Source: a virus
DNA: 25,230 nucleotides
Direction: 5' to 3' (one strand)
IMG/VR virus record: IMGVR_UViG_3300031974_002889
Span: 1 to 25,230 of that record
In this document: positions 9,433 through 23,843 of the stretch, in pieces
Numbering within the stretch: position 1 is the first letter of the stretch
How the letters are laid out: every line of letters starts with the position of its first letter
The notes under the pieces: generated by a model
Seen by the model: only the letters and a program-made list of their open reading frames with translations
Database searches by the model: none
Told to the model about the DNA's origin: nothing
Made by a program: the position numbers and the translations under genes

Positions 9433-9891
9433 TTATTTATTAAGCCCTGCTCTCTGTAATAGGGGACTTACTATTTCTTCTCCCAGTTTGTCTATGACAA
9501 ATGCCTCTACATCCCTTCTTAAGAGATCAGCGTCTTTGTCTTTTGCCATGTAAAGCAACAAATTCATCATTGCTTCTGGGTTTTCCTGGGCCTTCTGAAT
9601 TTCTCGGAGAACTTTTTTGGCGGCTGCCCGGATTTCTCCTGGTCCGTGTCCAGAAGCTTGATCTGGATTGTTCAAATAGTAAGCTATTTTACCATTGCTG
9701 TCTTCCAAATCTTTAAGGATAGCATTTACTATCATGGTGGCACCGGAGACTTTGGTGTCACCTTGTTTTCCTAGGTAGTTCATTATAGCAGCTTTATTAG
9801 TATTGAGAAGCCATGTGAAGCCCTCTTTAAGCATCAGTTTATCAAGTTCTTCCTTGATCATTCTTTTTAATGTTTTAGTTGTTAATTTCAT
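9433..9891 (-). CDS. Tagged protein, candidate internal head protein (152 aa)
   Basis: The N-terminus, MKLTTKTLKRMIKEELDKLM then LKEGF, matches the shared tag on proteins at 22149, 22526 and 22894. L-K-E followed by G at 21-24 fits the gp21-type cleavage rule. After the tag the protein is mainly helical, with conserved-looking GDTKVSGATMIVNAIL, GHGPGEIRAAAKKVL and a C-terminal domain VEAFVIDKLGEEIVSPLLQ. It is not strongly basic, unlike the other tagged proteins. I do not recognise the mature part. It lies among envelope-protein genes, far from the other tagged genes. ATG 9891 follows a GGAG site overlapping the previous stop. Confidence 0.65.
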   Translation of the reverse strand: MKLTTKTLKRMIKEELDKLMLKEGFTWLLNTNKAAIMNYLGKQGDTKVSGATMIVNAILKDLEDSNGKIAYYLNNPDQASGHGPGEIRAAAKKVLREIQKAQENPEAMMNLLLYMAKDKDADLLRRDVEAFVIDKLGEEIVSPLLQRAGLNK

Positions 9892-10286: not shown

Positions 10287-13200
10287 CTAAATACTTACAT
10301 TCGCATATCCATTATCTTTCTGAATATCTATCGTCATATCAACGACATCTTTAAGAGAATCTAAATGAGAAATCAGAATAACTGTTTTGAATTGATTCTT
10401 GATAAGTCTCAACAAGTTTGTGAATCCTTCCATGTGATCTTGGTCTAAGGCAGTAGCCGGCTCATCAAGAATGAATAATTCTGATTTTGGCAGATTAGTG
10501 ATCGAGATCAGAGCCAATCGGATAGCCATAGAGGCGAGAGTTTTTTCTGCTCCTGAGCCCATGGACAAAGGCCGTGGATCATAAGAGGGATGCTTAATCA
10601 TAATATCTAAGTTTTTAGCATTATTGATGAAGAATACTTCAAAGTCAACGATATTCTCTAATACTTTGGAAATCTCCTCATTTAACAAAGGAAGCCGCTT
10701 CTTGATAATAGTATAAGGAATTCCGTTAGGATGCATACACTGCATGAATAAATCATAAGCAATCCAGCCTTTTTCGATATCTTCCATCTCTGCTTTGCCT
10801 TCTTGCAAGGATTTAAGAATTTGCTTTGTGGCACCCTCTTCCACCAAAAGGTTTTGCAGTTTGGTTCTGCATTTATCAAGTTTTGCTTCTTTTGAAGATA
10901 GCGAAGATTCTAATCCCGTTCTCTCTCTTAGCAGAGTTTCTAGGTTTTCAATTGCTTCACGGTTTTCCTCATACTCTTTAATTTTCAGACCAAGATCTTC
11001 TATTTCTTTGGCTAGAAGTTTTGATCGATCAACATTTGAAGAATGTTTGAGGGTCTTCGTTTCAACTAGTCTCTTGTGTGTTTCAACTCCACGACTTAAA
11101 TCTTCATACTTACTAATCTGATCTGTTACTGAATCGATGTCTAAATGCCTCAAATCTGATAATAAATCAACTTTCATGCTATCGAGGTTGGCTAACTGGT
11201 CTAAGACCTGAGGTAAAGAATTTGAGGCTTTTTGGGCATCTTTGACAAACTTATTGTCACAACAGTATTGACAGTTTGGATCATACTTGTGGTTATGAAG
11301 CATTTTCATTTTCTTTTCTAGGGAACTCTTTTCTCGTAATAAAGAAGAGCGAGTTTGGTCTAGTTTTTGAATTTGAGCCTGAATAGAGTCATATTCTGCT
11401 TTTTTGTATTTCAATGATTCTAAGTCAATAGATCTAAGTTCCTCTGATATTGAAGAAAGTCTTTCTTTTGATTCTTGTATTTCAGAAAACAAACCTAAGT
11501 TACTTTTCATTAAAATAGTTTTATCTCTCTGCTTTTGTGTAAGAAGCATATTGACTTGGTCAATGTTGATTATCTCTGCTGGTATATTAGCAATCTGTGT
11601 TGTTATAATATCCAGTTCCTGCTTGATAGCATCAAGTTGTGTTGATAAAGTATCACACAAAGAGTTCTGGATTTGTCGGTCTTCTTCAATTTCTTGGAGA
11701 ATCTCTTCGTTCTTTGTTATTTGCTTGTCCCACTGTTTCTCTTGCAATCTCTTGATAACACCCCGCATCTCAGCAGCATCTTTTTTAGCTAGTTTGAATT
11801 TGCTATCAAAGATTTCAAGATCAAGGAATTTGGCAAGAATCTCTTTACGCTTAGTTGAACCTTCTTTAACAAAAGAGAGAGAGTCAAGTTGGCTCGACAT
11901 GGACGTCAGGAGGAAGTCATCTATGGTTCCAAACCTTTTACGAATATTAGCATCTGTTTCGTTCCGGGTGGTTCCATTCAAACTTTCGTCTTCTGATATT
12001 AAAGAAAAGTCTAGATCAATTCTTGCTTCCTGAGTCTCTCTGCCTTTTAATCTTTTTGTGTATTTTTCTATGTTTCGGCAGATTTGATAGGTCTTATCTC
12101 CAACTTCGATTTGAACTTTACCCTTGGCTCTCTCTCGATTTTGGTTAACTATGTGTACGTTCTTTCGCTCTCCTTTCGAGGTTGTATTAAACAATGTGAA
12201 TAGAAGGCTGTCAACAATACTAGACTTACCGGAATAGTTGCGACCGAAGATACCAACAAGCCCGTTGAGTTTCTCAAAATTGATTTTATTCTTTTCTCCG
12301 TAATTAAACAGGTTGTCCCACTCTGCTTCTTTGATTTTCCAAACGACATTTCTTGTAACCTCCTCATTCTGTTGTGCGATGATATCGTACTTCTTATTGT
12401 GTTCTAAGACCTTTGAAATTACACTTTCGTCCAATTCCATTCCCGATAAATAGTCTCTTATGTAGCTTTCTTGCACTGAAAGGTCTCGCATGTTCTCTTT
12501 TAGCACAACATTTGAATAGTTTCCGTCATTTGAGGAGAAAGACTCTTTGCCGTTGATAGTGGTTATTGAGAAAGGCTTCCAGTGAATCTCTGCATATGAT
12601 CGAGCTTTTCGGAGCTTATCAGAAGGCAGGTTAGTTGTTGAAACTAATCGCAATCGACAGTTTCTAGGCACATGTATATCCTTTGGAACTGATCCGTCTT
12701 TCTCAAGCTTCACGGTTATGAAAGGACGAGGATTAGAAAGATACTTCTTTTTAACTGCAAACTTATCCTTTGATTCAATCTCCCAAAGAAGATAACCTTT
12801 AAGAGCAGATTCGCTGAACTTTTGCTGAATCAAGCTACCAGAGTAACGGACTCTTCCTTCGGAATCCAACTCCTGTTGACGATGAATGTCACCAAGCATA
12901 GCATAGTCAAAGTCTTTGAAAATGCTTATGTCGTCATCGCCTTGATCCATGGTCCAGTTGGCTCCGGTCTTGGACCCCATCATGGCACCGTGATACAGGG
13001 CCACATTAACAATGTTCGGGTTTGTTGGCTTAACCCAGTTATCCCGATCAAAGATAGAGAGAACATTGAAGCACAATCCGTCTTCTGGCTGGAATTCACC
13101 AGAGTCTTTTAGATAAATAAGATTAGGGTGTTTGAGGGCATTAACAATCGGAGTTATAGCATCCTGGCGGTCTTCGTTCTTCAAGTTGCCATCATGATTA

Positions 13201-13436
13201 CCTGCGATTATAATTGTTGGTGCTACATTCGCCAAGCCAATAAGAAACTCAGTGCATAACTGAAAATACTCTGGACTTAGCTGGGTCTTGGTGTGAGCGA
13301 TGTCTCCACAGACAGTAACATAGTCTACTTGCTCTTCAAGCAAAGACTCATACATTTTTTTGAAAACTACACGATACTCTTCGTGATATTTAAGGTTGCG
13401 AATGTGAATGTCCGCCATGTGTGCTATTTTGTACAT
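10287..13436 (-). CDS. Single-chain SbcD-SbcC (gp47-gp46, Mre11-Rad50-type) fusion
   Basis: One uninterrupted 1049-residue frame joins a nuclease and an ATPase that are normally separate. The N-terminal metallophosphoesterase has DIH (8-11), GDIAH (44-48), GNHD (79-82), a YHG His and GDIH (182-185). The ATPase follows with Walker A GRNYSGKS (398-405), a long coiled coil, a zinc-hook CQYC (722-725) and a second coiled coil. Signature SMGSGAEK (958-965), Walker B LFILDEP (987-993) and a SH switch complete it. T4 gp47 plus gp46 total about 900 aa. I start at ATG 13436, preceded by GGAGG, rather than 6 codons upstream. The expected role is processing DNA ends for recombination-dependent replication and host DNA degradation. 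Confidence 0.93.
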   Translation of the reverse strand: MYKIAHMADIHIRNLKYHEEYRVVFKKMYESLLEEQVDYVTVCGDIAHTKTQLSPEYFQLCTEFLIGLANVAPTIIIAGNHDGNLKNEDRQDAITPIVNALKHPNLIYLKDSGEFQPEDGLCFNVLSIFDRDNWVKPTNPNIVNVALYHGAMMGSKTGANWTMDQGDDDISIFKDFDYAMLGDIHRQQELDSEGRVRYSGSLIQQKFSESALKGYLLWEIESKDKFAVKKKYLSNPRPFITVKLEKDGSVPKDIHVPRNCRLRLVSTTNLPSDKLRKARSYAEIHWKPFSITTINGKESFSSNDGNYSNVVLKENMRDLSVQESYIRDYLSGMELDESVISKVLEHNKKYDIIAQQNEEVTRNVVWKIKEAEWDNLFNYGEKNKINFEKLNGLVGIFGRNYSGKSSIVDSLLFTLFNTTSKGERKNVHIVNQNRERAKGKVQIEVGDKTYQICRNIEKYTKRLKGRETQEARIDLDFSLISEDESLNGTTRNETDANIRKRFGTIDDFLLTSMSSQLDSLSFVKEGSTKRKEILAKFLDLEIFDSKFKLAKKDAAEMRGVIKRLQEKQWDKQITKNEEILQEIEEDRQIQNSLCDTLSTQLDAIKQELDIITTQIANIPAEIINIDQVNMLLTQKQRDKTILMKSNLGLFSEIQESKERLSSISEELRSIDLESLKYKKAEYDSIQAQIQKLDQTRSSLLREKSSLEKKMKMLHNHKYDPNCQYCCDNKFVKDAQKASNSLPQVLDQLANLDSMKVDLLSDLRHLDIDSVTDQISKYEDLSRGVETHKRLVETKTLKHSSNVDRSKLLAKEIEDLGLKIKEYEENREAIENLETLLRERTGLESSLSSKEAKLDKCRTKLQNLLVEEGATKQILKSLQEGKAEMEDIEKGWIAYDLFMQCMHPNGIPYTIIKKRLPLLNEEISKVLENIVDFEVFFINNAKNLDIMIKHPSYDPRPLSMGSGAEKTLASMAIRLALISITNLPKSELFILDEPATALDQDHMEGFTNLLRLIKNQFKTVILISHLDSLKDVVDMTIDIQKDNGYANVSI

Positions 13437-13627
13437 GTTTCCTCCATTGTACATTTTTCAATCCAATCAGGAAATACATAAATTTTTTCTGATGGACTAG
13501 AAACTACTAAAACAGTTGTTTGTTTGTTTATTGATGTTATAATAAATGCGGTGTCCATTAGAGAGAACCACATAGTTGAATTAAGGCATTTTTCGTTAAG
13601 ATAAACAAGATCTCCTACCTTAAACAT
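13424..13627 (-). CDS. Small VGDLV-family beta-barrel protein (67 aa)
   Basis: A 67-residue protein starting MFKVGDLVYL, the signature of a small family present six times in this window. The pattern of short hydrophobic strands (AFIITSIN, TTVLVVSS, IYVFPDWIEKC) suggests a small SH3-like or KOW-like barrel. It is coupled by TAATG to the Smr gene before it and overlaps the fused nuclease gene by 13 bases. The function is unknown. Nucleic-acid or protein binding would fit the fold but is not shown. Confidence 0.7.
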   Translation of the reverse strand: MFKVGDLVYLNEKCLNSTMWFSLMDTAFIITSINKQTTVLVVSSPSEKIYVFPDWIEKCTMEETCTK

Positions 13628-13878
13628 TATTCTTTCCTATAAATTCTGATATAGCCATAAGTTCCTGTTATTCCTCCGACATTATAGTGTAGTCTATATT
13701 TGTCGATGATCTCAGTTACAATTTCTTTCATTTTTGATGAGTTGCCGGTAATGATATACATATCATGTCCGTAATGATCGTTCAAGAAACGATGACATTT
13801 CGTGACAACTTCTTCATAATTTGATCCGTGAAGATCAAGTGTTCTAAAATTATGAATTCCAAAACCTTCGTTGCTCAC
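13627..13878 (-). CDS. Stand-alone Smr-domain protein
   Basis: This 83-residue protein is a single Smr domain, the unit at the C-terminus of MutS2. It has LDLHG (14-18), a helix (YEEVVTKCHRFLND), the central strand and loop IITGNSSKMKEIV (42-54) in place of the more usual THGxG, and the last strand GYIRIY (75-80). Smr domains nick DNA or RNA in several proteins and act in recombination control or ribosome rescue. The start is GTG at 13878 inside an ATGTGA overlap with the nuclease gene, with AGGAGG 5 bases upstream. The altered THG motif leaves catalytic activity uncertain. Confidence 0.8.
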   Translation of the reverse strand: MSNEGFGIHNFRTLDLHGSNYEEVVTKCHRFLNDHYGHDMYIITGNSSKMKEIVTEIIDKYRLHYNVGGITGTYGYIRIYRKE

Positions 13879-13891
13879 ATTATCCTCCTTA
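13875..13891. repeat. Downstream copy of 17-base junction repeat flanking the nuclease gene
   Basis: TCACATTATCCTCCTTA matches the sequence at 15269-15285 at 15 of 17 positions. On the coding strand it encodes RRIM, the stop, an AGGAGG site and the GTG start of the next gene. The two copies bracket the nuclease gene exactly. Confidence 0.6.
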
Positions 13892-15272
13892 TTTTTTTAT
13901 AGTTTTTATTCCATTTAGGTGTTGAAATGGGGCACTCTATTTTCTTCCTAATTGCATTAATAAATTCTTGCTTTAACACCTCGGCTCCGGACCTGTGGTT
14001 GCTAAACTTAGTAGCGTTAAAAGTCCAATAAATAAGCCCTCTTTGTTGAATAAGGAAGCACTTTATTTTATCTCTTTCAATAACTTTTTCATAAGTTATT
14101 TGTCCACCCCAATAATCTATGGGCTTATAATGTTGGGCTCCCTGAAACTCGACTGCCAACCCAAGATCTTCATTATAACAATCAATTTCAAGTTGACCAC
14201 CTGTTTTGTGGTTTTTTAACCATTTGGGATAACAAGACGGAAAAGGTACTTGAAAAAATTCCTCTAACGCTTCTCTAAGGATAGCTTCTTTTAAGCGACC
14301 AGTGCCGCATGTTGGGCACCGCTTACCAGAAAGAAAATTGCTTAATTTAACACGATATGGCTGATGTCCGTGATCGCATTTAACAATAATATAATCATCT
14401 GATTTGACTTTTTTTATCTTGCCATTATTTGGAAGATCTACCAGAGTATAGCCGGCACCTTCAATTATTTCTTTGACATCAGTTTGGCTTCTAGAATTTT
14501 TAAAACTAAAACAATTATTACAAATAACCCCACTTGAGTTTTCAGCACGAAGTTTACGTTTTATTAATCTTAGTTTTTTGGTCTCTATTGTATCGCACTT
14601 TTTGCATTTGTAAGTTACATAGTCTTCATTCCAGACGACATCAATTGGGTTTTCCGGCAATTTTATTATTTCGACCTGCTTTTCGAGCAGTCTTTCTAAT
14701 CCTATAGAAGTCTCTGAACTGTGTGTTCTAGAGCACATTCCACACCATCTGTTATTTACTTTAATGGTTCTCCATTTAGGTGTCCATGTTTTTTCACAAC
14801 TCTCACATTGGACCTTTATCCTGTGTTCTGTCTGGATGTACGACTTGCCGCCATTCATTGAATCAACCAAAATGCCGCCTCGATTTTTTAATTCTTGTTT
14901 TACAAACTCTACCGAATCTGATTGCCTTTCTTTGAAGCACTCATGGCAGCCTTGTTTCTTGGATGTGTGAGCGGCTGGGGTTTTGAAGAAAGGGCCATGC
15001 TTTGGGCAAATAATTTTAACAGGCTTAGAGTTTTTTATGTATTCAACTTCAGAATAATCATAAAAGTTATTATGAACCATGTTGGCTTTTTCAATAAATG
15101 TTTCTTGCCGTGTAAATCGATTTTCTTCTTGTGCTATTTCTTTTTCTTCAGTCGACAGTGTAGAACACTTTTTACATTGATTCCTATATGTACCTCTGTC
15201 TCTTCTTAAGTGGAAATATTCCGCAGTCGCAGGAAATGTTTCTCCGCATTTTGTACAAGTCTTCTCATTCAC
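13875..15272 (-). CDS. Multi-zinc-ribbon Vsr/EDxHD-like nuclease, probable homing endonuclease
   Basis: This 465-residue protein has a string of CxxC pairs (6/9, 33/36, 110/113, 156/159, 177/180, 223/226, 251/254, 319/322). It also has a FIEKANMVHNNFYDYSEVEY module, typical of phage and viral homing-type proteins. The C-terminal 330-430 looks like a Vsr or PD-(D/E)XK nuclease: a helix with Glu335, QLEIDCYNEDLGLAVEFQG with acidic 362, 364 and 375, then QHYKP and a DKIK segment. The zinc ribbons probably read DNA. Start is GTG 15272 with AGGAGG 5 bases before it, inside ATGTGA of the primase gene. Position between two replication genes and the repeated junction suggest insertion as a selfish gene. 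Confidence 0.75.
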   Translation of the reverse strand: MNEKTCTKCGETFPATAEYFHLRRDRGTYRNQCKKCSTLSTEEKEIAQEENRFTRQETFIEKANMVHNNFYDYSEVEYIKNSKPVKIICPKHGPFFKTPAAHTSKKQGCHECFKERQSDSVEFVKQELKNRGGILVDSMNGGKSYIQTEHRIKVQCESCEKTWTPKWRTIKVNNRWCGMCSRTHSSETSIGLERLLEKQVEIIKLPENPIDVVWNEDYVTYKCKKCDTIETKKLRLIKRKLRAENSSGVICNNCFSFKNSRSQTDVKEIIEGAGYTLVDLPNNGKIKKVKSDDYIIVKCDHGHQPYRVKLSNFLSGKRCPTCGTGRLKEAILREALEEFFQVPFPSCYPKWLKNHKTGGQLEIDCYNEDLGLAVEFQGAQHYKPIDYWGGQITYEKVIERDKIKCFLIQQRGLIYWTFNATKFSNHRSGAEVLKQEFINAIRKKIECPISTPKWNKNYKKIRRIM

Positions 15273-15285
15273 ATGATCCTCCTAA
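15269..15285. repeat. Upstream copy of 17-base junction repeat flanking the nuclease gene
   Basis: TCACATGATCCTCCTAA is the partner of 13875-13891. It covers the last codons of the primase (RRIM, stop) and the start region of the nuclease. Both junctions have the same ATGTGA overlap and the same AGGAGG spacing. Confidence 0.6.
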
Positions 15286-16207
15286 GTTCATCCATCAAGA
15301 AAAAATCATCATTATCAACTGCTTGAGCCATTTGCTTTCTTGATTCAAAAATTCTTCGAGGCATTTCTCCAATATCCTCGAATCCGGTTGTGTCGATCTT
15401 GTAAAGTTCGATATCATAGTATAACATGTTCTTTATAATTTGTCCAGTTTTTTTCTCCGCATCAGTATCAAAGGCTAGGTAAACCGGTGTATCATTGAGA
15501 GCAATCGCTTGAAATAACTTGGCTTTGTCTCGGAGGGTGGAGCCCAATACAGGAACGGCATTTTCCCCGGCGGAAATAGCATCAAAAACTCCTTCTACAA
15601 GGGTCACCGGCTCATCCCAGTCTACATACAATTCGTTGAAAATTATGTCCCTTTCTGCCGGAGGATTGAGGTATCTCCATTTGTGCCCGACATAGGATCT
15701 GGCGATAAAATAATTGATGTTGCCTTTGTTGTTAAAAGAAGGGATAATTATCCGGCCACCATAACGGCCCTCCGGACAATATCCAATCTTCCAACGAAGA
15801 ATCTCCTTAGGCCCTATTCCCCTACTCTGGAGATATTCGAGGGCCTTTTGGGAGGTTCTGGGTAAGTGCTTGTTGCAAAGCGAGATGAATTCGTCTGGTA
15901 AGGAGATCACCTGCTCTTCTTCAATGTTGTTGATTTCATTGAAAATCTGGTCGAACTCTGAGAGATCAAGGCGACCTTCCAATTCAAGCCACTTCTGTCT
16001 CTGCTGATAAGTTCCGAACTTGCGAACGATACGATAAGCATTCTTGCCTCGTTTGTCGCAAACCCAGCAATGCCAGCCTCGTTTGAGATTAATGGCAAGC
16101 TTTTTCTTGTGATGGTTGCAGTAAGGACAATGGAAGTATAACTCTCCACCTTGTGGTGTATTTGGTCTCCCAAGGATGTCCGTTAGGATTCTAATCTTCT
16201 CTTCCAT
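15269..16207 (-). CDS. DnaG-type primase with zinc ribbon and TOPRIM
   Basis: A 312-residue primase that would make RNA primers for lagging-strand DNA synthesis at the phage fork. Residues 27-50 form the zinc-binding domain (CPYC and CWVC, with His-Lys spacing between). The central domain includes LEYLQSRGIGPKEILRWKIGYCPEG and the RNA polymerase basic portion GGRIIIPSFNNKG. The TOPRIM core has VTLVEGVFDAISA (Glu205) and VYLAFDTDAEKKT (Asp247 and Asp249). It is shorter than bacterial DnaG (about 580 aa) because the C-terminal helicase-binding domain is missing, as in T4 gp61. ATG 16207 has GGAGGAG upstream and overlaps the coiled-coil gene. Confidence 0.92.
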   Translation of the reverse strand: MEEKIRILTDILGRPNTPQGGELYFHCPYCNHHKKKLAINLKRGWHCWVCDKRGKNAYRIVRKFGTYQQRQKWLELEGRLDLSEFDQIFNEINNIEEEQVISLPDEFISLCNKHLPRTSQKALEYLQSRGIGPKEILRWKIGYCPEGRYGGRIIIPSFNNKGNINYFIARSYVGHKWRYLNPPAERDIIFNELYVDWDEPVTLVEGVFDAISAGENAVPVLGSTLRDKAKLFQAIALNDTPVYLAFDTDAEKKTGQIIKNMLYYDIELYKIDTTGFEDIGEMPRRIFESRKQMAQAVDNDDFFLMDELRRIM

Positions 16208-16391
16208 TTTTCTCCTCCAACTCTTTTACGATTTCTGTTTCCAACATCTCTGCTTCATGCAGATAGTTTCCAGCAAGCACATGCTTGCCTTTTCTTTGAG
16301 CCTCAAAAGCCTTTTCTCTCAACAGGACAAGTTTATCTTGTTTTTTTTCAAGAGATGTTTTAAAGCCAAACAATTTAAGAATCCAATCCAT
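16191..16391 (-). CDS. Small coiled-coil protein (66 aa)
   Basis: A 66-residue frame with ATG 16391, a GGAGG site and overlaps of 17 bases with each neighbour. The start is hydrophobic (MDWILKLFGF), perhaps a membrane-associated helix, and residues 13-60 are a charged coiled coil (LEKKQDKLVLLREKAFEAQ, then LETEIVKELEEK). I do not recognise a family, though small coiled-coil genes are frequent in phage early regions. The overlaps and ribosome site support it as real. Its role next to the primase is unknown. Confidence 0.6.
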   Translation of the reverse strand: MDWILKLFGFKTSLEKKQDKLVLLREKAFEAQRKGKHVLAGNYLHEAEMLETEIVKELEEKNGRED

Positions 16392-16560
16392 TTACTGCCT
16401 CCAATTCTACTTCGTGAAACCAACCGGCTTGATTATTGTTCCAAACAATTTTATAAAGTATGCCGTCTGGTGTTTCTAACAAATCTATAATAATACCAAT
16501 GTGGTCGGTTGCGTCGAAGATCCATTCGGAATCAAAAAAAACGAGATCACCCACTTGCAT
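16375..16560 (-). CDS. VGDLV-family small protein (61 aa)
   Basis: A 61-residue member starting MQVGDLVFFD. Strand-like segments (HIGIIIDLLE, ILYKIVWNN, WFHEVELEAV) follow the plan of the other five members, with an aromatic W near the end. It is the last of four consecutive copies and overlaps its neighbours by 14-17 bases. Function is unknown. Confidence 0.7.
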   Translation of the reverse strand: MQVGDLVFFDSEWIFDATDHIGIIIDLLETPDGILYKIVWNNNQAGWFHEVELEAVNGLDS

Positions 16561-16750
16561 TTATAATCTCCACATCATCTATTAAACAAATCAGTATATC
16601 CCCATTGAAATCAACACAATCAATATATTTGCCGTTTACAATACGAATGACAATCCCAATCGTTCCCCAGACTCCATGGCCCCCTATATCAGCATACGGA
16701 GGATCTGATGGTATCCTGTTTCTATACTTTATCAAGTCTCCGACTTTCAT
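16547..16750 (-). CDS. VGDLV-family small protein (67 aa)
   Basis: A 67-residue member starting MKVGDLIKYRN. The body has GTIGIVIRIVNGKYIDCVDF and LIDDVEIINA, consistent with a small five-strand barrel. It overlaps the upstream member by 29 bases and the downstream one by 14. The GxxGIVI motif in the middle is shared with other members. Function is unknown. Confidence 0.7.
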   Translation of the reverse strand: MKVGDLIKYRNRIPSDPPYADIGGHGVWGTIGIVIRIVNGKYIDCVDFNGDILICLIDDVEIINASG

Positions 16751-16922
16751 TTATTACCTCAAAAGAATAATCAAATAAAAAGAAATTCTTCTTCTTATCA
16801 TTTATATAAAAAGTAGCCCAATGATTATAATCATTATCTCTTTTGGTTCCCAAAAAGATTCCAAAAATAGAGCTAGCCCCTCCATCCTTAGGAGATATCT
16901 TTACCAAATCTCCAACTTTCAT
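16722..16922 (-). CDS. VGDLV-family small protein (66 aa)
   Basis: A 66-residue member starting MKVGDLVKIS. It is closest to the neighbour at 16957-17160: both carry a GIF(L/I) strand, a segment where a Trp precedes (A/V)-(T/V)-F-(Y/F)-I-N, and a closing LF-x-FDY-x-F-x-V. That similarity points to a recent tandem duplication. ATG 16922 has an excellent AGGAGG site 8 bases upstream. The 34-base gap before it is AT-rich and has no clear terminator. Confidence 0.75.
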   Translation of the reverse strand: MKVGDLVKISPKDGGASSIFGIFLGTKRDNDYNHWATFYINDKKKNFFLFDYSFEVINESRRLDKV

Positions 16923-16956
16923 ATGATAACCTCCTAAAATACTTTTGTCAAATTAA

Positions 16957-17160
16957 TTATAAAACTTTAAATTTATAATCAAACATAAAGAGGCTTATTA
17001 TTTCGTTATTAATAAAAAAGACCCCCCAATCTGGGCAACCCTCTGAGGCTCTGGTTTCAATGAAAATGCCCAAATAAGATTCTTCTGGGAGGGAGATCTG
17101 TTGAAGTTCTACAAGATCACCCCTCTTAAAAGAACAGTTTCCCATGTATTTCTTAAGCAT
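16957..17160 (-). CDS. VGDLV-family small protein (67 aa)
   Basis: A 67-residue member in which the motif is FKRGDLVELQ after an 11-residue N-terminal extension. An internal Met at codon 6 is an alternative start, but the longer start overlaps the UvdE stop by 8 bases and has AGGAAAG upstream. It shares WGVFFINNEI and LFMFDYKFKVL with the next gene, indicating duplication. Function is unknown. Confidence 0.7.
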   Translation of the reverse strand: MLKKYMGNCSFKRGDLVELQQISLPEESYLGIFIETRASEGCPDWGVFFINNEIISLFMFDYKFKVL

Positions 17161-18070
17161 GCTTGAAATCTTTCCTGTATTTAAGAAGTGCCCGTTCTTT
17201 CATCTTGCATTCAAGAACAACATCGACCTCTTCTCCAAAGTTCTCGAAAGGAGTGTAATACCAGTCAGAATGAGCACTAGCTCGCACTGAGCCATCCTCA
17301 TAGTTTTTCTTTGAGTTTGAATGGTGGCATTGTTGTTTGATGCCGCGATTCTGCCAGGTTTCACGAGCCATGAAGAATGCTTCTTTGTATGATACATCTT
17401 GTGGGCCGAGTTCATGGTGATGAGAGTCAAAGACTATAGGGACACCAATCCGAGAAGATAAGCCGTCATACAACATCTTAGTAGAAAACAAAGATTCTCG
17501 ATCATCATTCTCAACCGTGAGTCTAGACTGAGTGCTTGGAGAAAGTCTGGAAAAATTGCTGCAAAACCGGTCAAGAGTTTTGTCATGCTCTCCATAAGCA
17601 CCACCGACATGAATATTGATTTTAGCTTGTGGAGATTGCGGCAAGCCCATAAGGTCCATTTGAACTGAGTGGGCGTCAAGTTCTGCGACAGTTTTGAGAA
17701 CAACTTCATCTTTTGGAGAACCGAGACAATTAAAGGGGCCGGGGTGAAATGATAAACGTTGACCGCCAGACATTGCAATTTCCCCAGCCTCGGACATAAC
17801 ATCAGCAATAGCATCAATATCTGGCAAAGTAAAAATATCGTATTCTGAAAACCATGGAAAGAGGCACGAAGTCATACGATAAACTTTGATGCCGTTAGCA
17901 TTGTTCCATTCGATGATCTTCTTAAGAGCACGAACATTTGACAGTGCGATCTCAGAAGCATACTTGACACCTTTTGCTTGAAAGGTGCGTTTGATCATGC
18001 CCCGATTGCATGATATTTTTTGTTCTTGCAAAGTCATATTGATGCAAGCATAACCCAAGTTTACGGACAT
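17153..18070 (-). CDS. uvdE: UV damage endonuclease UvdE
   Basis: A 305-residue TIM-barrel nuclease that nicks DNA next to UV photoproducts and other lesions. Family marks are LGYACIN at the start, YRMTSCLFPWFSEYD, RLSFHPGPFN, INIHVGGAYGEHD, RLTVENDD and VFDSHHHELG; His, Glu and Asp metal ligands are all present. The length is close to that of bacterial UvdE. I choose ATG 18070 because GGAGG precedes it. The promoter at 18102-18129 lies inside the longer reading frame that starts at 18154. It is the first gene of the repair and replication unit. The likely role is repairing sunlight damage in phage DNA during infection, which fits an aquatic environment. Confidence 0.92.
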   Translation of the reverse strand: MSVNLGYACINMTLQEQKISCNRGMIKRTFQAKGVKYASEIALSNVRALKKIIEWNNANGIKVYRMTSCLFPWFSEYDIFTLPDIDAIADVMSEAGEIAMSGGQRLSFHPGPFNCLGSPKDEVVLKTVAELDAHSVQMDLMGLPQSPQAKINIHVGGAYGEHDKTLDRFCSNFSRLSPSTQSRLTVENDDRESLFSTKMLYDGLSSRIGVPIVFDSHHHELGPQDVSYKEAFFMARETWQNRGIKQQCHHSNSKKNYEDGSVRASAHSDWYYTPFENFGEEVDVVLECKMKERALLKYRKDFKHA

Positions 18071-18101
18071 GGGAACCTCCGTTGTGTGATGTGATACTAC
18101 T

Positions 18102-18129
18102 AATATAACACTATCAGAGATTTTGTCAA
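18102..18129 (-). promoter_or_regulatory. Sigma70-type promoter for uvdE and the replication unit
   Basis: On the minus strand TTGACA (18124-18129) is 16 bases from TATATT (18102-18107), giving a leader of about 25 bases to ATG 18070. It lies in the 80-base gap after the aldolase stop and sets the uvdE start. No terminator separates it from the upstream genes, so read-through transcripts are also likely. Confidence 0.75.
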
Positions 18130-18150
18130 GTATTTTATGTTTCTTTTTTA

Positions 18151-18747
18151 TCAATAAGGGGCTACACCACTCTTTAACACAATTTCACAAATATGCTCTA
18201 ATCTCTCAATATGTTCGTAAGCATCCCATGGATTTGCCCCAACCGCACACACACCGTGCCCTGCTTGGCCTACGATATCATAAACAACCCTATTGTCTTC
18301 GGTCATTGCCGTGTGTGTTGCAACAGCCAATTCTCTGCTAGTAACCGGCAGGATTGGAACCGTTGGGCCCACTTTCGTATATCTGCTAACCTCTGGGAAC
18401 ATCGATGCTAAATCTTGTAGATCCCAGCCAGCGAAAATAGCGGCAATTATATTTGTCGGATGAAGATGGACTACTGCTCTTGTGGGCTTATAGTTTCTCT
18501 GTAAAAGATAATGCATCTCAAGCTCGCCTGATGGCTTGGCACTAGGATCGCCCAGTGTCCTGCAAGCCTGATGATTGAAGACGACTTTTAGCATGTGTTC
18601 TGGGTGAATGATGGTCTTTCTCCAACCCGATGGTGTTATATACATCATCTTTTTTCCACTACGACAAAGAGAGACATTTCCGTCTCTCGTAGTTATCCAC
18701 CCCTTTTCGTAGGCTCGTCGCATTACATCGCCCATTGCTGTTAACAT
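18151..18747 (-). CDS. Class II aldolase/adducin-family enzyme
   Basis: A 198-residue enzyme of the zinc-dependent class II aldolase family, which also includes ribulose-phosphate 4-epimerase and methylthioribulose-phosphate dehydratase. Motifs are DGNVS (22-26) and TPSG (38-41) for phosphate binding, PSGE with Glu75, HLHP with His94 and His96, and AGHG with His164. The three metal His and the catalytic Glu are all in place, so the active site looks intact. It is about 20 residues shorter than E. coli fuculose-phosphate aldolase. It follows a cupin-like gene and structural genes. ATG 18747 has AAGGAAT upstream. The substrate cannot be told; sugar-phosphate conversion, perhaps for a glycan or for host metabolism, is an inference. 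Confidence 0.88.
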   Translation of the reverse strand: MLTAMGDVMRRAYEKGWITTRDGNVSLCRSGKKMMYITPSGWRKTIIHPEHMLKVVFNHQACRTLGDPSAKPSGELEMHYLLQRNYKPTRAVVHLHPTNIIAAIFAGWDLQDLASMFPEVSRYTKVGPTVPILPVTSRELAVATHTAMTEDNRVVYDIVGQAGHGVCAVGANPWDAYEHIERLEHICEIVLKSGVAPY

Positions 18748-20552: not shown

Positions 20553-20965
20553 TATCCTACTCCCGATGAGCCAGACCAATTTGTTAATAAATGGCTAGCA
20601 TCAATTCCTGTTAAGCCGGCAATAACAGAAGCAGAGGCTTCGTTTGCCGTATCAGACATTAAATAAACTTTTGTTAATTTAAGCTCTGCTTCAAAAGATT
20701 GTCCGTTTTTTAAAATTCCATAGTTATTATTTTCAATACCCTTAACACCGTTCGCAGAAGCCCCAAATCTAATTGGAGTTGCTGTGGCACCAGTATCTAA
20801 ATCGTTTGTTATAACTATAAAACGAGAAACTGAATCGAAAGAAACCTCTAAAGGTTCAGAGCCTGATGCTGGTACAGTCAATGACGATGTAAGAAACGGC
20901 TTCGCTGAGGTCTGAAAGGATGGAACATGTCCTAATCCAAATGTATATTTGAAGTTACTTGACAT
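20552..20965 (-). CDS. Virion protein (137 aa), coupled to the 510-aa virion protein
   Basis: ATG 20965 (MSSNFKYTFGLGHVPSF) is chosen because it overlaps the upstream stop as TAATG; two more upstream codons are open but unlikely. The 137-residue product is a Ser/Thr/Ala-rich beta protein (SVSRFIVITNDLDTGATATPIRFG). Its close coupling with the next gene suggests the two proteins are made together, perhaps as partners in one structure. No family is recognised. Confidence 0.65.
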   Translation of the reverse strand: MSSNFKYTFGLGHVPSFQTSAKPFLTSSLTVPASGSEPLEVSFDSVSRFIVITNDLDTGATATPIRFGASANGVKGIENNNYGILKNGQSFEAELKLTKVYLMSDTANEASASVIAGLTGIDASHLLTNWSGSSGVG

Positions 20966-22149
20966 TACCAAAATCTCCCCGGTACATTTTTACCAAAATC
21001 TTTATGTGCCCTACAAGCCCAATAACCTGACTTTGTTCTATCTGTCTTGTCGGCACACTTGTGGCGAGCGGCAAATGATTTGCGAGCCTCTGCACTATTC
21101 CAGTTTCCTTTTAGGCCGCCCTTTTTATCGCCATAAGTAATCTTTTTGATGTTTCCGGTCTTGGGATTGCGAACATAAACTTTATATTTTTTTCCGCCAT
21201 CAGTATTCTTTGTTGGTTTACCGATTGGAGGATCTTTTTTCTTTTTCTTTTTTGCTTCATCAATGTCGTCTTCATTTAACATTGGATGATCAAGCGGAAC
21301 TGGCTTTCCCTCGAATACACCGAAATTTCCAATGTCGGTTTCAAGAATATAATGCTTCTCATTTTCGTTTAGTGTATAACGGCCCTCAGAGTGCAATTTT
21401 CGCACTTCCCGGAAGAGCCTATAAAAACTATCACTATCGGGCCGGAAGACATTTTTATCTACCCCTACACCCTCTCTAATGTGGTATTTGAGATGCTTTG
21501 AAACCTTTGGGTCTTTAAGAAGGGCTTTGTTTTCTTCAAGTTTTGCTTTTGATAGCTTGGTGTAATACTCTGGGTCTTCATAGACATGCTCCATCGCAAT
21601 TTCGTGTGCGATTGCTTCGTCATCAGTATGTTCCTTCTCGACTTCAATGCCCTTTGAAAGTTCTTTTTCAATTTCTTCCACAGACACTTTATGCATATCG
21701 GCAAGCTGCTTATGTTGATCTTCCATAGAGCCTTTTAATTTGTCGCCGTAGCCACCGGGAAGTGCATCTTCATCAATTGCATCTTCTATTGCTTTTGCCT
21801 GATTTCCGTGTGCTTTAACGGCTCCCTTTAATTGATCTATAACATCTTCCAACTCATCCTTTTCTTTGTCGGTGATCTCACCTTCGTAAAGGGCCTCATT
21901 CTTCTTGGACTTATTGCCCCAGTTCTTGGCACCAACCTTGCGACATTTTGATAAAGCACCAGAGGCATAAGCCGAAGGCCATACTTTATAGCGAGACTTA
22001 ACTTTGCGATAGCATGCATCCTTTTTGGCTTTCTTTTTCCTTCTTTTTTGCCGCTTTCGCCTTCGTGCTCTCTTAGAAGCTTTCTCGTCAATTACAGATT
22101 CAAGCTCTTCTTTGATAATTTGTTGTAGTTCTTCTGTTGTAATTTTCAT
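20965..22149 (-). CDS. Tagged multi-domain protein, candidate packaged head protein (394 aa)
   Basis: The N-terminal tag (residues 1-22, MKITTEELQQIIKEELESV then IDE) is followed by a very basic patch (24-44). A domain with CYRKVKSRYKVWPSAYASGA and CRKVGAKNWG (46-78) follows. An acidic helical middle contains EKEHTDDEAIAHEIAMEHVY (about 160-200), a block I know as DUF5661-like. After PMLNEDDIDE|AKKKKKK comes a C-terminal domain with KVYVRNPKTG and a Cys-containing end (ARHKCADKTD, YWACRAH). Sites I/L-x-E at 20-22, 87-89 and 296-298 fit gp21-type cleavage, so the product may be cut into pieces. It overlaps the previous tagged gene by ATGA. Function is unknown. Confidence 0.7.
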   Translation of the reverse strand: MKITTEELQQIIKEELESVIDEKASKRARRRKRQKRRKKKAKKDACYRKVKSRYKVWPSAYASGALSKCRKVGAKNWGNKSKKNEALYEGEITDKEKDELEDVIDQLKGAVKAHGNQAKAIEDAIDEDALPGGYGDKLKGSMEDQHKQLADMHKVSVEEIEKELSKGIEVEKEHTDDEAIAHEIAMEHVYEDPEYYTKLSKAKLEENKALLKDPKVSKHLKYHIREGVGVDKNVFRPDSDSFYRLFREVRKLHSEGRYTLNENEKHYILETDIGNFGVFEGKPVPLDHPMLNEDDIDEAKKKKKKDPPIGKPTKNTDGGKKYKVYVRNPKTGNIKKITYGDKKGGLKGNWNSAEARKSFAARHKCADKTDRTKSGYWACRAHKDFGKNVPGRFW

Positions 22150-22526
22150 CGCTTTTTACCTTTCGCTGATTTCTTGCCCCATGATTTACCGCGGCCTCTT
22201 TCGCCACAAGCTCCGGGGGTTGGACGACATGATGGATATTTTGCTCGCTTCTCGCCTTTGGAGCGACCACATGGCTTACACTTTTTACGACCGGTCTTTT
22301 TATTTTTGCGGCATGTGTTACAATCAACCCAGCCGCCCTTCTTACCGGGGGCTCCTTTGCGGCCAAACCAATCACCAAGATTAGACTCTTTTGAAGATTC
22401 AGAACCGGCTTTCTTTTTTCTTTTCTTGGACTTCTTTTTACGTTTCTTTCGCTTTTTCTTTTCATCAAGAACAGAGGCCAATTCTTCTTCAATAATATTG
22501 TATAGTTCTTCAGTTGTCAAATTCAT
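22146..22526 (-). CDS. Tagged, very basic Cys-containing protein (126 aa)
   Basis: Residues 1-22 are the shared tag (MNLTTEELYNIIEEELASVLDE). Residues 23-39 are almost pure Lys/Arg. The rest contains GDWFGRKGAPGKKGGWVDC and Cys at 69, 72, 83, 86, 100 and 107, which would suit one or two zinc sites; a similar module occurs in other viruses by my recollection. With an L-D-E cut at 20-22 the mature protein would be a small, basic, metal-binding DNA-compacting type, like T4 internal proteins in character but not in sequence. AGGA precedes ATG 22526. Confidence 0.75.
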   Translation of the reverse strand: MNLTTEELYNIIEEELASVLDEKKKRKKRKKKSKKRKKKAGSESSKESNLGDWFGRKGAPGKKGGWVDCNTCRKNKKTGRKKCKPCGRSKGEKRAKYPSCRPTPGACGERGRGKSWGKKSAKGKKR

Positions 22527-22549: not shown

Positions 22550-22894
22550 TTATTTTTCCATCTTTCGTACAACTGTTGCCGTATAGGCATCTGCTGCTTT
22601 TTTCGGAAGCCCCTTAGTTCGCGAAATGCACTTTGATTTACCTTTGAAAGTCTTATTATCAAAGCAGTCTTGTTTCTCTTTCAAGGGCGGAGTTGACTCT
22701 CTGAATTTATTTATTGCTTCGACAAAGGCGGCATATACTTCATCCAACGGGACACCTGCACTGGCTATGATCGCAGAGAACCTCATTTTAATCTGCTCCT
22801 TTTCCAAAGCCGGCAGATTTACAGATGGGCGATATCCCATCATTTCCTCTAATTCTTGTGATATTATTCTTTTGAGATCTTCTTTTGTAAGCAC
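22550..22894 (-). CDS. Tagged small protein (114 aa)
   Basis: The start is GTG 22894, with GAGGAAA upstream. Residues 1-20 (MLTKEDLKRIISQELEEMMG) are a shorter version of the tag. A helical middle (about 30-65) leads to a C-terminal module QDCFDNKTFKGKSKCISRTKG with KKAADAYTATVVRKME, a Lys-rich unit I know from other marine phage proteins. Two Cys (77 and 89) flank the TFKGK segment. It is the first gene of three consecutive tagged genes, which supports shared expression and destination. Confidence 0.7.
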   Translation of the reverse strand: MLTKEDLKRIISQELEEMMGYRPSVNLPALEKEQIKMRFSAIIASAGVPLDEVYAAFVEAINKFRESTPPLKEKQDCFDNKTFKGKSKCISRTKGLPKKAADAYTATVVRKMEK

Positions 22895-22927: not shown

Positions 22928-23119
22928 TTATTCAATCAACTTTACATATCCGATGTTGACCGCTTGGAGATAATCTATTGAAATCCAGTGTACTATGACA
23001 TAATCATGATTTAAAATTTGCATCACAATTCCGTAGCCCAAACAATCTTCTTCATACATCTTGTAAGGGTCACGATCAAATACTAAGTCACCGACACTGA
23101 GAGGGCAATCAAACATCAT
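22928..23119 (-). CDS. VGDLV-family small protein (63 aa)
   Basis: A 63-residue member with the motif LSVGDLVFDRD after a short extension (MMFDCP). Strands GYGIVMQIL, DYVIVHWI and VNIGYVKLIE fit the family plan. The start codon overlaps the end of the small membrane protein gene. It is separate from the tandem cluster but clearly related. Function is unknown. Confidence 0.65.
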   Translation of the reverse strand: MMFDCPLSVGDLVFDRDPYKMYEEDCLGYGIVMQILNHDYVIVHWISIDYLQAVNIGYVKLIE

Positions 23120-23291: not shown

Positions 23292-23843
23292 TCATTCTTT
23301 CTCCATTGATAATCCGGCCCTTGCTATTACAACTGAGTCTGCTTTATCGTCCGTTCCTGGTTTTGGATTTCCATGTCTGGTGTATTCTACAATGAAGTCT
23401 TTTGGATATTCTTTCTGTACCCATTCAATAACTTTCAATTTTGTATTCTCGCCACGTTTTATTTTCAGGCCAATTAAACCTCTGGCTTTATTCGCTGCGA
23501 TCATTACAGGCTCTACTCCGAGAGTTCTTCTTACCATATAAGAAACCATTCCATTGAATCTCTGTAATTTACTCATGGTCATGGCGGTTGTCTTGCCACC
23601 AGAGAACATCATAAATGGAGATTCAATAAATATTTCTTTTATATATAATTTATTATTATTATTTATATAATTATTACCATTTAAATTATCAATAATATTC
23701 TCTAATTCTATACATTTTTCAATTAAAGAATTATTAGAATTTAATTTTATTACTTGACAAATTAAAAGATTATTATTATAATCTATAATAGATAAACCAA
23801 TCTTGCTTGTGCTTACATCTAAGCCTAAAATAACTTCTTTCAT
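23292..23843 (-). CDS. RuvC-like Holliday junction resolvase
   Basis: A 183-residue RNase H-fold resolvase that should cut recombination branches before packaging. It shows GLDVSTSKIGLSII (Asp9), FIESPFMMFSGGKT (Glu74), and DDKADSVVIARAG near the C-terminus with the acidic pair. Poxvirus and phage RuvC proteins share this plan. Residues 22-65 contain an Asn-rich stretch (NNNN and NGNNYINNNN) that is unusual and makes the gene very AT-rich there. The start must be ATG 23843, since the catalytic Asp9 lies just inside it. The promoter ends 8 bases before the start, so the mRNA may be almost leaderless. Confidence 0.85.
   Translation of the reverse strand: MKEVILGLDVSTSKIGLSIIDYNNNLLICQVIKLNSNNSLIEKCIELENIIDNLNGNNYINNNNKLYIKEIFIESPFMMFSGGKTTAMTMSKLQRFNGMVSYMVRRTLGVEPVMIAANKARGLIGLKIKRGENTKLKVIEWVQKEYPKDFIVEYTRHGNPKPGTDDKADSVVIARAGLSMEKE
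23641..23720 (-). repeat. AT-rich, Asn-coding low-complexity tract in the resolvase gene
   Basis: This tract is nearly all A and T with repeated TTATTA units on the plus strand, encoding AAT-type Asn codons. It is the most AT-biased stretch in the window and is in frame. Slippage would add or remove Asn without a frameshift. Confidence 0.6.

Follow-up and report, generated by a model that had tools for sequence, protein, structure and literature searches.

A single-chain Mre11–Rad50 (SbcD–SbcC) fusion in a T4-like phage and the zinc-hook diversity of its relatives

A 25,230-base virus record, analysed over its whole length and referred to here as the window, contains a long open frame which appears to encode both halves of the Mre11–Rad50 (SbcD–SbcC) complex in one chain, and this raises the questions of whether the fusion is real, how it compares with systems already described, and what such a protein might do for the phage.

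Domain anatomy of the fused gene

At 10287..13436 the minus strand encodes a single open frame of 1049 codons, running from ATG 13436 to the stop at 10287; the original prediction had these coordinates right and left the strand unstated. An alternative in-frame ATG at 13454 would give a product of 1055 residues, but we take ATG 13436 as the start because it is directly preceded by the Shine-Dalgarno sequence GGAGG (13441..13445, minus strand, 4 nt ahead of the ATG). Pfam finds Metallophos (residues 3–185, 7.7e-10) as well as SMC_N (4.8e-14) and AAA_23 (5.3e-10) in the same protein, the latter two covering residues 368–1041, and the PHROGs match is to SbcC (phrog_77, 1.4e-57).

The N-terminal part of the protein (residues 1–296; 12549..13436, minus strand) corresponds to the Mre11/SbcD nuclease and capping domains, with residues 2–296 of an AF2 model matching the nuclease and capping domains of Staphylococcus aureus SbcD (7dog; Z 24.9, rmsd 3.5, 273 residues aligned), and it is this match that places a capping domain after the nuclease. 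It is followed by a linker (residues 297–312; 12501..12548, minus strand) where pLDDT falls below 50 and which is, judging from the model, probably disordered. Beyond this are two AF2 helices (319–333 and 337–356; region 319–356, 12369..12482, minus strand), a predicted helix-loop-helix which we equate, by position alone, with the Rad50-binding domain of Mre11, and the second helix is separated from the first Rad50 strand by only some seven residues (357–363). The Rad50 N-lobe (residues 364–560; 11757..12347, minus strand) is assigned from AAA_23 and the model and leads into an antiparallel coiled coil of long predicted helices (residues 561–901; 10734..11756, minus strand) with the hook at its apex, a zinc hook of the CX2C type (CQYC, residues 722–725; 11262..11273, minus strand) recognised from the sequence and from hook typing across the family. 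The C-lobe (residues 902–1049; 10290..10733, minus strand), assigned from Pfam, motifs and the model, completes the ATPase, and residues 364–1049 of the model match the Rad50 head 3av0 with a Z of 30.1. The mean pLDDT of the model is 80.7, with a pTM of only 0.50 which leaves the relative placement of the domains unsure.

The motifs of both activities are complete in the one frame, as the original prediction had claimed from the nuclease motifs, both ATPase halves and the hook, and together with Pfam they bear this out. The nuclease residues are D9/H11, D45, H48, N80/H81/D82, H149 and D183/H185 (D183 being Asp in place of His), and these are nearly invariant among 99 fused proteins (D45, N80, H81, H149, D183 and H185 in all 99, D9, H48 and D82 in 98, and H11 in 97). 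The ATPase motifs are a Walker A GRNYSGKSS (398–406), the Q-loop Q516, the signature GSGAEK (960–965), a Walker B ILDEP (989–993) followed by the D-loop, and the H-switch H1024; here K404, G962, D991 and E992 are present in 99/99 proteins and Q516, S961, E964 and H1024 in 98. Membership in the Mre11–Rad50/SbcCD family is thus indicated by the metal ligands, the capping domain, the bipartite ABC ATPase and the CXXC-hooked coiled coil, all of which were found.

The signature had been singled out as SMGSGAEK rather than the common SGGE type, and this reading is accurate but the feature is not distinctive, as SGAE is usual in this family. Of the 99 fused proteins, 84 have A and 12 have M at the third position of the signature, making S-G-(A/M)-E a family rule. 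Nor is a non-SGGE signature a hallmark of fusion, because the split T4 gp46 carries SEGEK and other split phage proteins vary further.

Single-frame relatives and earlier descriptions of the fusion

One scan of IMG/VR gave 33 loci, and a profile scan gave at least 595 stretches encoding a relative. The best 80 of the at least 595 stretches, together with other loci which we had collected, provided 107 full-length single-frame relatives (frames whose coverage starts within the first 25 residues and reaches at least residue 1000), 95 of them distinct, sharing 30–81% identity and coming from many independent contigs. The single-chain homologues that the original prediction proposed to look for are therefore plentiful, and its reading of the locus as one 1049-residue SbcD–SbcC chain is upheld by the open frame, motifs, Pfam and relatives alike. 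A chance open frame is excluded: all 95 distinct relatives keep the fusion in one frame, and comparison with the nearest relative (L002) gives a dN/dS of about 0.03 on both sides of the junction, for the nuclease and linker as well as for the N-lobe. This ratio is rough, because dS has reached saturation in the coil and C-lobe and comes close to it in the nuclease.

A frameshift or a sequencing or assembly join between adjacent sbcD and sbcC genes had been named as the finding that would overturn the fusion, and it is a natural concern since in T4-like phages, Herelleviridae and cyanophages the known pairs consist of two separate genes, adjacent or nearly adjacent to one another. Nevertheless, the 95 distinct relatives from independent contigs are all single-frame, the junction stays open despite high synonymous change, and the fusion recurs in an isolate, Microcystis phage Mel-JY01. 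We reject a join on the basis of the single-frame relatives and regard the chance of one as negligible.

Besides Mel-JY01, isolated phages with the fused architecture include the more distantly related Xanthomonas phage phiXF1, and the proteins of these isolated relatives are annotated merely as 'AAA domain' or 'hypothetical'. Where frames in relatives were incomplete they mostly ran off the end of a contig, with exceptions including two of particular form. One locus on a 52.6 kb contig (L022:7920-10334) encodes a complete 805-residue fusion in which the coil is almost gone and the hook cysteines are absent. In the phage record LR756508 (L036:3944-8169), an endonuclease-like frame of 305 residues with zinc-finger-like cysteines interrupts the fused gene just behind the Mre11 GDIH motif; it is probably a homing endonuclease, carried perhaps by an intron or a split intein. 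A search of plasmids gave no match covering >80% of the query. A scan of bacterial genome contigs found eight loci, of which seven are in metagenome-assembled genomes, several on short contigs, and the eighth, in a Paenibacillus isolate, matches in part and weakly (E 1e-6); we did not accept these as evidence of chromosomal carriage in bacteria. We also note that a 2.8 Mb 'WOR-3' assembly has an N-terminal and a C-terminal part of a fused gene at two far-apart places (L126 and L129), which may reflect an assembly artefact or an integrated phage.

The fused architecture itself has been known since 2011, when Mre11/Rad50 fusions were described by Yoshida, Claverie and Ogata (Virol J; PMC3175470). 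That paper is the source of the claim that the fusion is recurrent, listing as carriers Mimivirus (R555), Bacillus phage 0305phi8-36, bacterial plasmid and chromosomal cases and eukaryotes, and it reports that R555 homologs are abundant in aquatic (ocean) viral metagenomes, with many scaffolds carrying phage genes including primases, although few long metagenome sequences confirmed the fusion itself. The unusualness implied by the original prediction is consequently not sustained, fusions having already been described from aquatic viral metagenomes among other sources (PMC3175470), whereas the rest of its interpretation, a fused Mre11–Rad50 with all motifs and no frame error or join, stands.

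PMC3175470 also describes two departures in R555, the third Asp of GDxxD being replaced by His and His206 of Pyrococcus furiosus Mre11 by Asp, and both substitutions are present in the window protein (GDIAH at 44–48 and GDIH at 182–185). On that description the two proteins are alike in being one chain with Mre11 ahead of Rad50, in their GDxxH motif and Asp at the His206 position, in keeping the capping region and, judged by position, a predicted helix-loop-helix, in being the only copy in the virus, and in their association with aquatic, phage-primase scaffolds; they differ in that R555 is a 1351-residue protein with a longer coil from a giant amoeba virus, compared with 1049 residues in a T4-like phage. 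Giant-virus proteins of similar length rank first in a viral fold search, where the best full-length matches included fusion-size proteins from Tupanvirus, Harvfovirus and Yasminevirus together with Tenacibaculum phage proteins.

Among isolates, the Mel-JY01 protein (WWT39521.1, 1066 residues, annotated solely as 'AAA domain containing protein') is likewise a full-length fusion with 30.6% identity over 99%, a CXXC hook (CKHC) and a primase-like gene directly upstream, but it has an SGME signature and sits on a distant branch. T4 gp47–gp46 has the same two activities (Metallophos plus Rad50 ATPase), a CXXC hook (CPTC), a T4-like background and the gene order 47 then 46 in the direction of transcription; however, it is encoded by two genes (339 and 560 residues) and differs in its SEGEK signature, shorter coil and last metal motif (GHFH, against GDIH in the window protein). 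Escherichia coli SbcD–SbcC shares the fold of both halves and differs in having two genes, a 1048-residue SbcC, an LSGGE signature and GHIH. A tree of the heads placed the window protein and 26 other fused proteins in one group (bootstrap/SH-aLRT 100/99), with long branches making the positions of phiXF1 and a gut phage unsure. A topology holding all of the fused proteins together was not rejected (AU p 0.351), which is compatible with a single fusion event as well as with several.

Gene neighbourhood and proposed function

The window protein belongs to a large group of aquatic (marine) T4-like phages. Its neighbours in the window, a T4-type portal, T4-type terminase, prohead protease, primase and RuvC-like resolvase, provide a T4-like setting, and the synteny is found across related loci, with the RuvC-like gene and primase upstream of the fused gene and the terminase and portal downstream. 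The DnaG-like primase (15269..16207, minus strand; phrog_47, 2.6e-40) is a conserved neighbour, found no more than 3 kb upstream in 60/65 loci with enough DNA, and the RuvC-like Holliday-junction resolvase (23292..23843, minus strand; phrog_159, 5.6e-13) has a counterpart upstream in 60/95 loci. Thirteen long relative contigs (97–204 kb, which may be incomplete genomes) all have a T4-type portal and exactly one SbcC match (phrog_77), in each case inside the fused frame; Metallophos matches once in 11 of them, the other two having an extra frame of some 225–235 residues. RecA is present in 9/13, including all five contigs of at least 184 kb.

Other genes in the window deserve mention in their own right. 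An endonuclease-like gene between the primase and an Smr-like gene (13875-15272, minus strand; phrog_559 HNH endonuclease, 3e-38) was matched in none of the 95 related loci and is for this reason probably a recent mobile insertion. Six small proteins of 61–67 residues starting with a (V/R)GDL(V/I) motif are encoded on the minus strand (16375-17160, 13424-13627, 22928-23119) and are possibly a duplicated SH3-like family. An N-terminal helix resembling MxxTxEELxxIIKEELxxxL is common to otherwise different minus-strand products (9433-9891, 20965-22149, 22146-22526, 22550-22894 and 1208-1651), with similar starts in 11 related loci when a strict pattern was used, and is perhaps a capsid-targeting peptide, the phage having a T4-type prohead protease. 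At 17153-18747 (minus strand) a UvdE-type UV endonuclease adjoins a class II aldolase-like gene, and near the fused gene such matches occur in only 3/95 and 1/95 related loci, respectively.

Because a single frame is conserved, the motifs of nuclease and ATPase are complete, the hook is of the CXXC type and the long relatives lack a second SbcC, we consider it very probable that this protein is the phage's only Mre11–Rad50 (SbcCD, T4 gp47–gp46) DNA-end-processing enzyme, encoded as one chain. Two chains would pair through their Mre11 nuclease domains, their ATP-engaged Rad50 heads and a zinc ion bound jointly by two CXXC hooks, and the helix-loop-helix and short linker would tether each Mre11 to its own Rad50. 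Such tethering would fix nuclease to ATPase at 1:1, and this stoichiometry and the 2:2 assembly, both raised in the original prediction, are reasonable to infer. By analogy with T4 gp46/47, DNA-end resection would feed RecA/UvsX-driven, recombination-dependent replication, and the enzyme perhaps also aids degradation of host DNA.

The chain might instead work as two proteins, either through proteolysis in the linker (297–312) or through an internal start making extra Rad50. The low model confidence and probable disorder of the linker would suit such a scheme, as would a purine-rich stretch upstream of M316 and the presence in these phages of a head maturation protease gene, a type of protease that normally acts on capsid proteins. 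Against it, the linker is flexible in part only, the stretch from the helix-loop-helix to the ATPase is short (357–363), and conservation is lacking at M316, where the family consensus reads ENLRD. Since M316 was the candidate codon, we reject a conserved internal Rad50 start and consider a conserved separate Rad50 from such a start unlikely, and the two-protein reading as a whole is very unlikely.

It is also unlikely, though conceivable, that the main role is counter-defence or destruction of the host genome rather than recombination-dependent replication. T4 gp46/47 is annotated as needed for both recombination and host-DNA degradation, and the hook cassettes described below turn over frequently, as can happen to parts caught in a conflict; on the other hand, the genes kept beside the fused gene across loci serve replication and recombination (primase, RuvC-like), and the frequency of RecA in the long contigs also speaks for the replicative role.

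Zinc-hook diversity and probable exchange

According to PMC9569753 the Rad50 hook is a highly conserved CXXC, but a motif search at the hook divided the 99 fused proteins into 40 with CX2C (the window protein included), 52 with CX6C, four with CX7C, one with CX8C and two with none. The CX2C class has the pattern HEYDPxCxYCxxNxFV and the CX6C class VPCGxxFxxCKFI (consensus VPCGxxFPxCKFIxDA); L113, typed as CX2C, looks unrelated at the hook and was left out of later counts. In a model of a CX6C protein (L064), C713 and C720 lie in a loop at the coil apex between helices 667–710 and 721–756, and the CXXC of the window protein is at the same apex in its own AF2 model. No hook variants are mentioned in the parts of PMC3175470 that were covered.

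Hook class does not follow the phylogeny of the rest of the protein. On a head tree made without the coil and hook it needs 13 changes, 12 of them forced by well-supported branches, and trees of the N part, C-lobe and nuclease alone, with eight long-branch or doubtful rows dropped, each need 11 changes of which 10, 9 and 7 are forced, respectively. Pairs with at least 90% head identity have a mean hook identity of 86% when they share a hook class (12 pairs) and 33% when they do not (3 pairs), while coil identity is alike in the two sets (71% and 69%). Two pairs, L056/L064 and L034/L014, have heads that are 97% identical but unlike hooks. Between L056 (CX2C) and L064 (CX6C) nucleotide identity is mostly 80–98% along the gene and falls to 45–57% at about codons 700–760, and the L064 hook is nearest to that of L060 whereas the L056 hook is nearest to those of distant CX2C proteins. 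An assembly artefact is argued against for L034 because an identical sequence (L032) was recovered from a different metagenome.

Exchange of the hook and nearby coil between relatives as a cassette, by recombination, is well supported by these sequence comparisons, because nearly identical heads (about 97%) carry different hooks. We infer that CX2C and CX6C hooks would both bind zinc and that exchange would alter the choice of partner. The reason for the exchange can only be guessed at; a tentative suggestion, which we rate as less than an even bet, is that hook and coil may form an exchangeable specificity cassette by which co-circulating phages would avoid mixed dimers with each other's Rad50 or with that of the host. 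Within mostly open-access literature, our search found no description of Rad50 hook exchange or of non-CXXC hook types. Hook exchange makes the family more interesting but is a feature of that family rather than of the window sequence in particular, which carries the CXXC type.

Fused Mre11–Rad50 appears to be common in IMG/VR, and offers a compact single-gene form of the complex whose 1:1 stoichiometry is built in and which could lend itself to expression and study. According to the abstract of PMC6969161, the human Rad50 hook is a dimerisation module interchangeable with an SMC hinge; hook exchange among these phages, should it be confirmed, would parallel that interchange in nature and would make the purpose of hook dimerisation directly testable.
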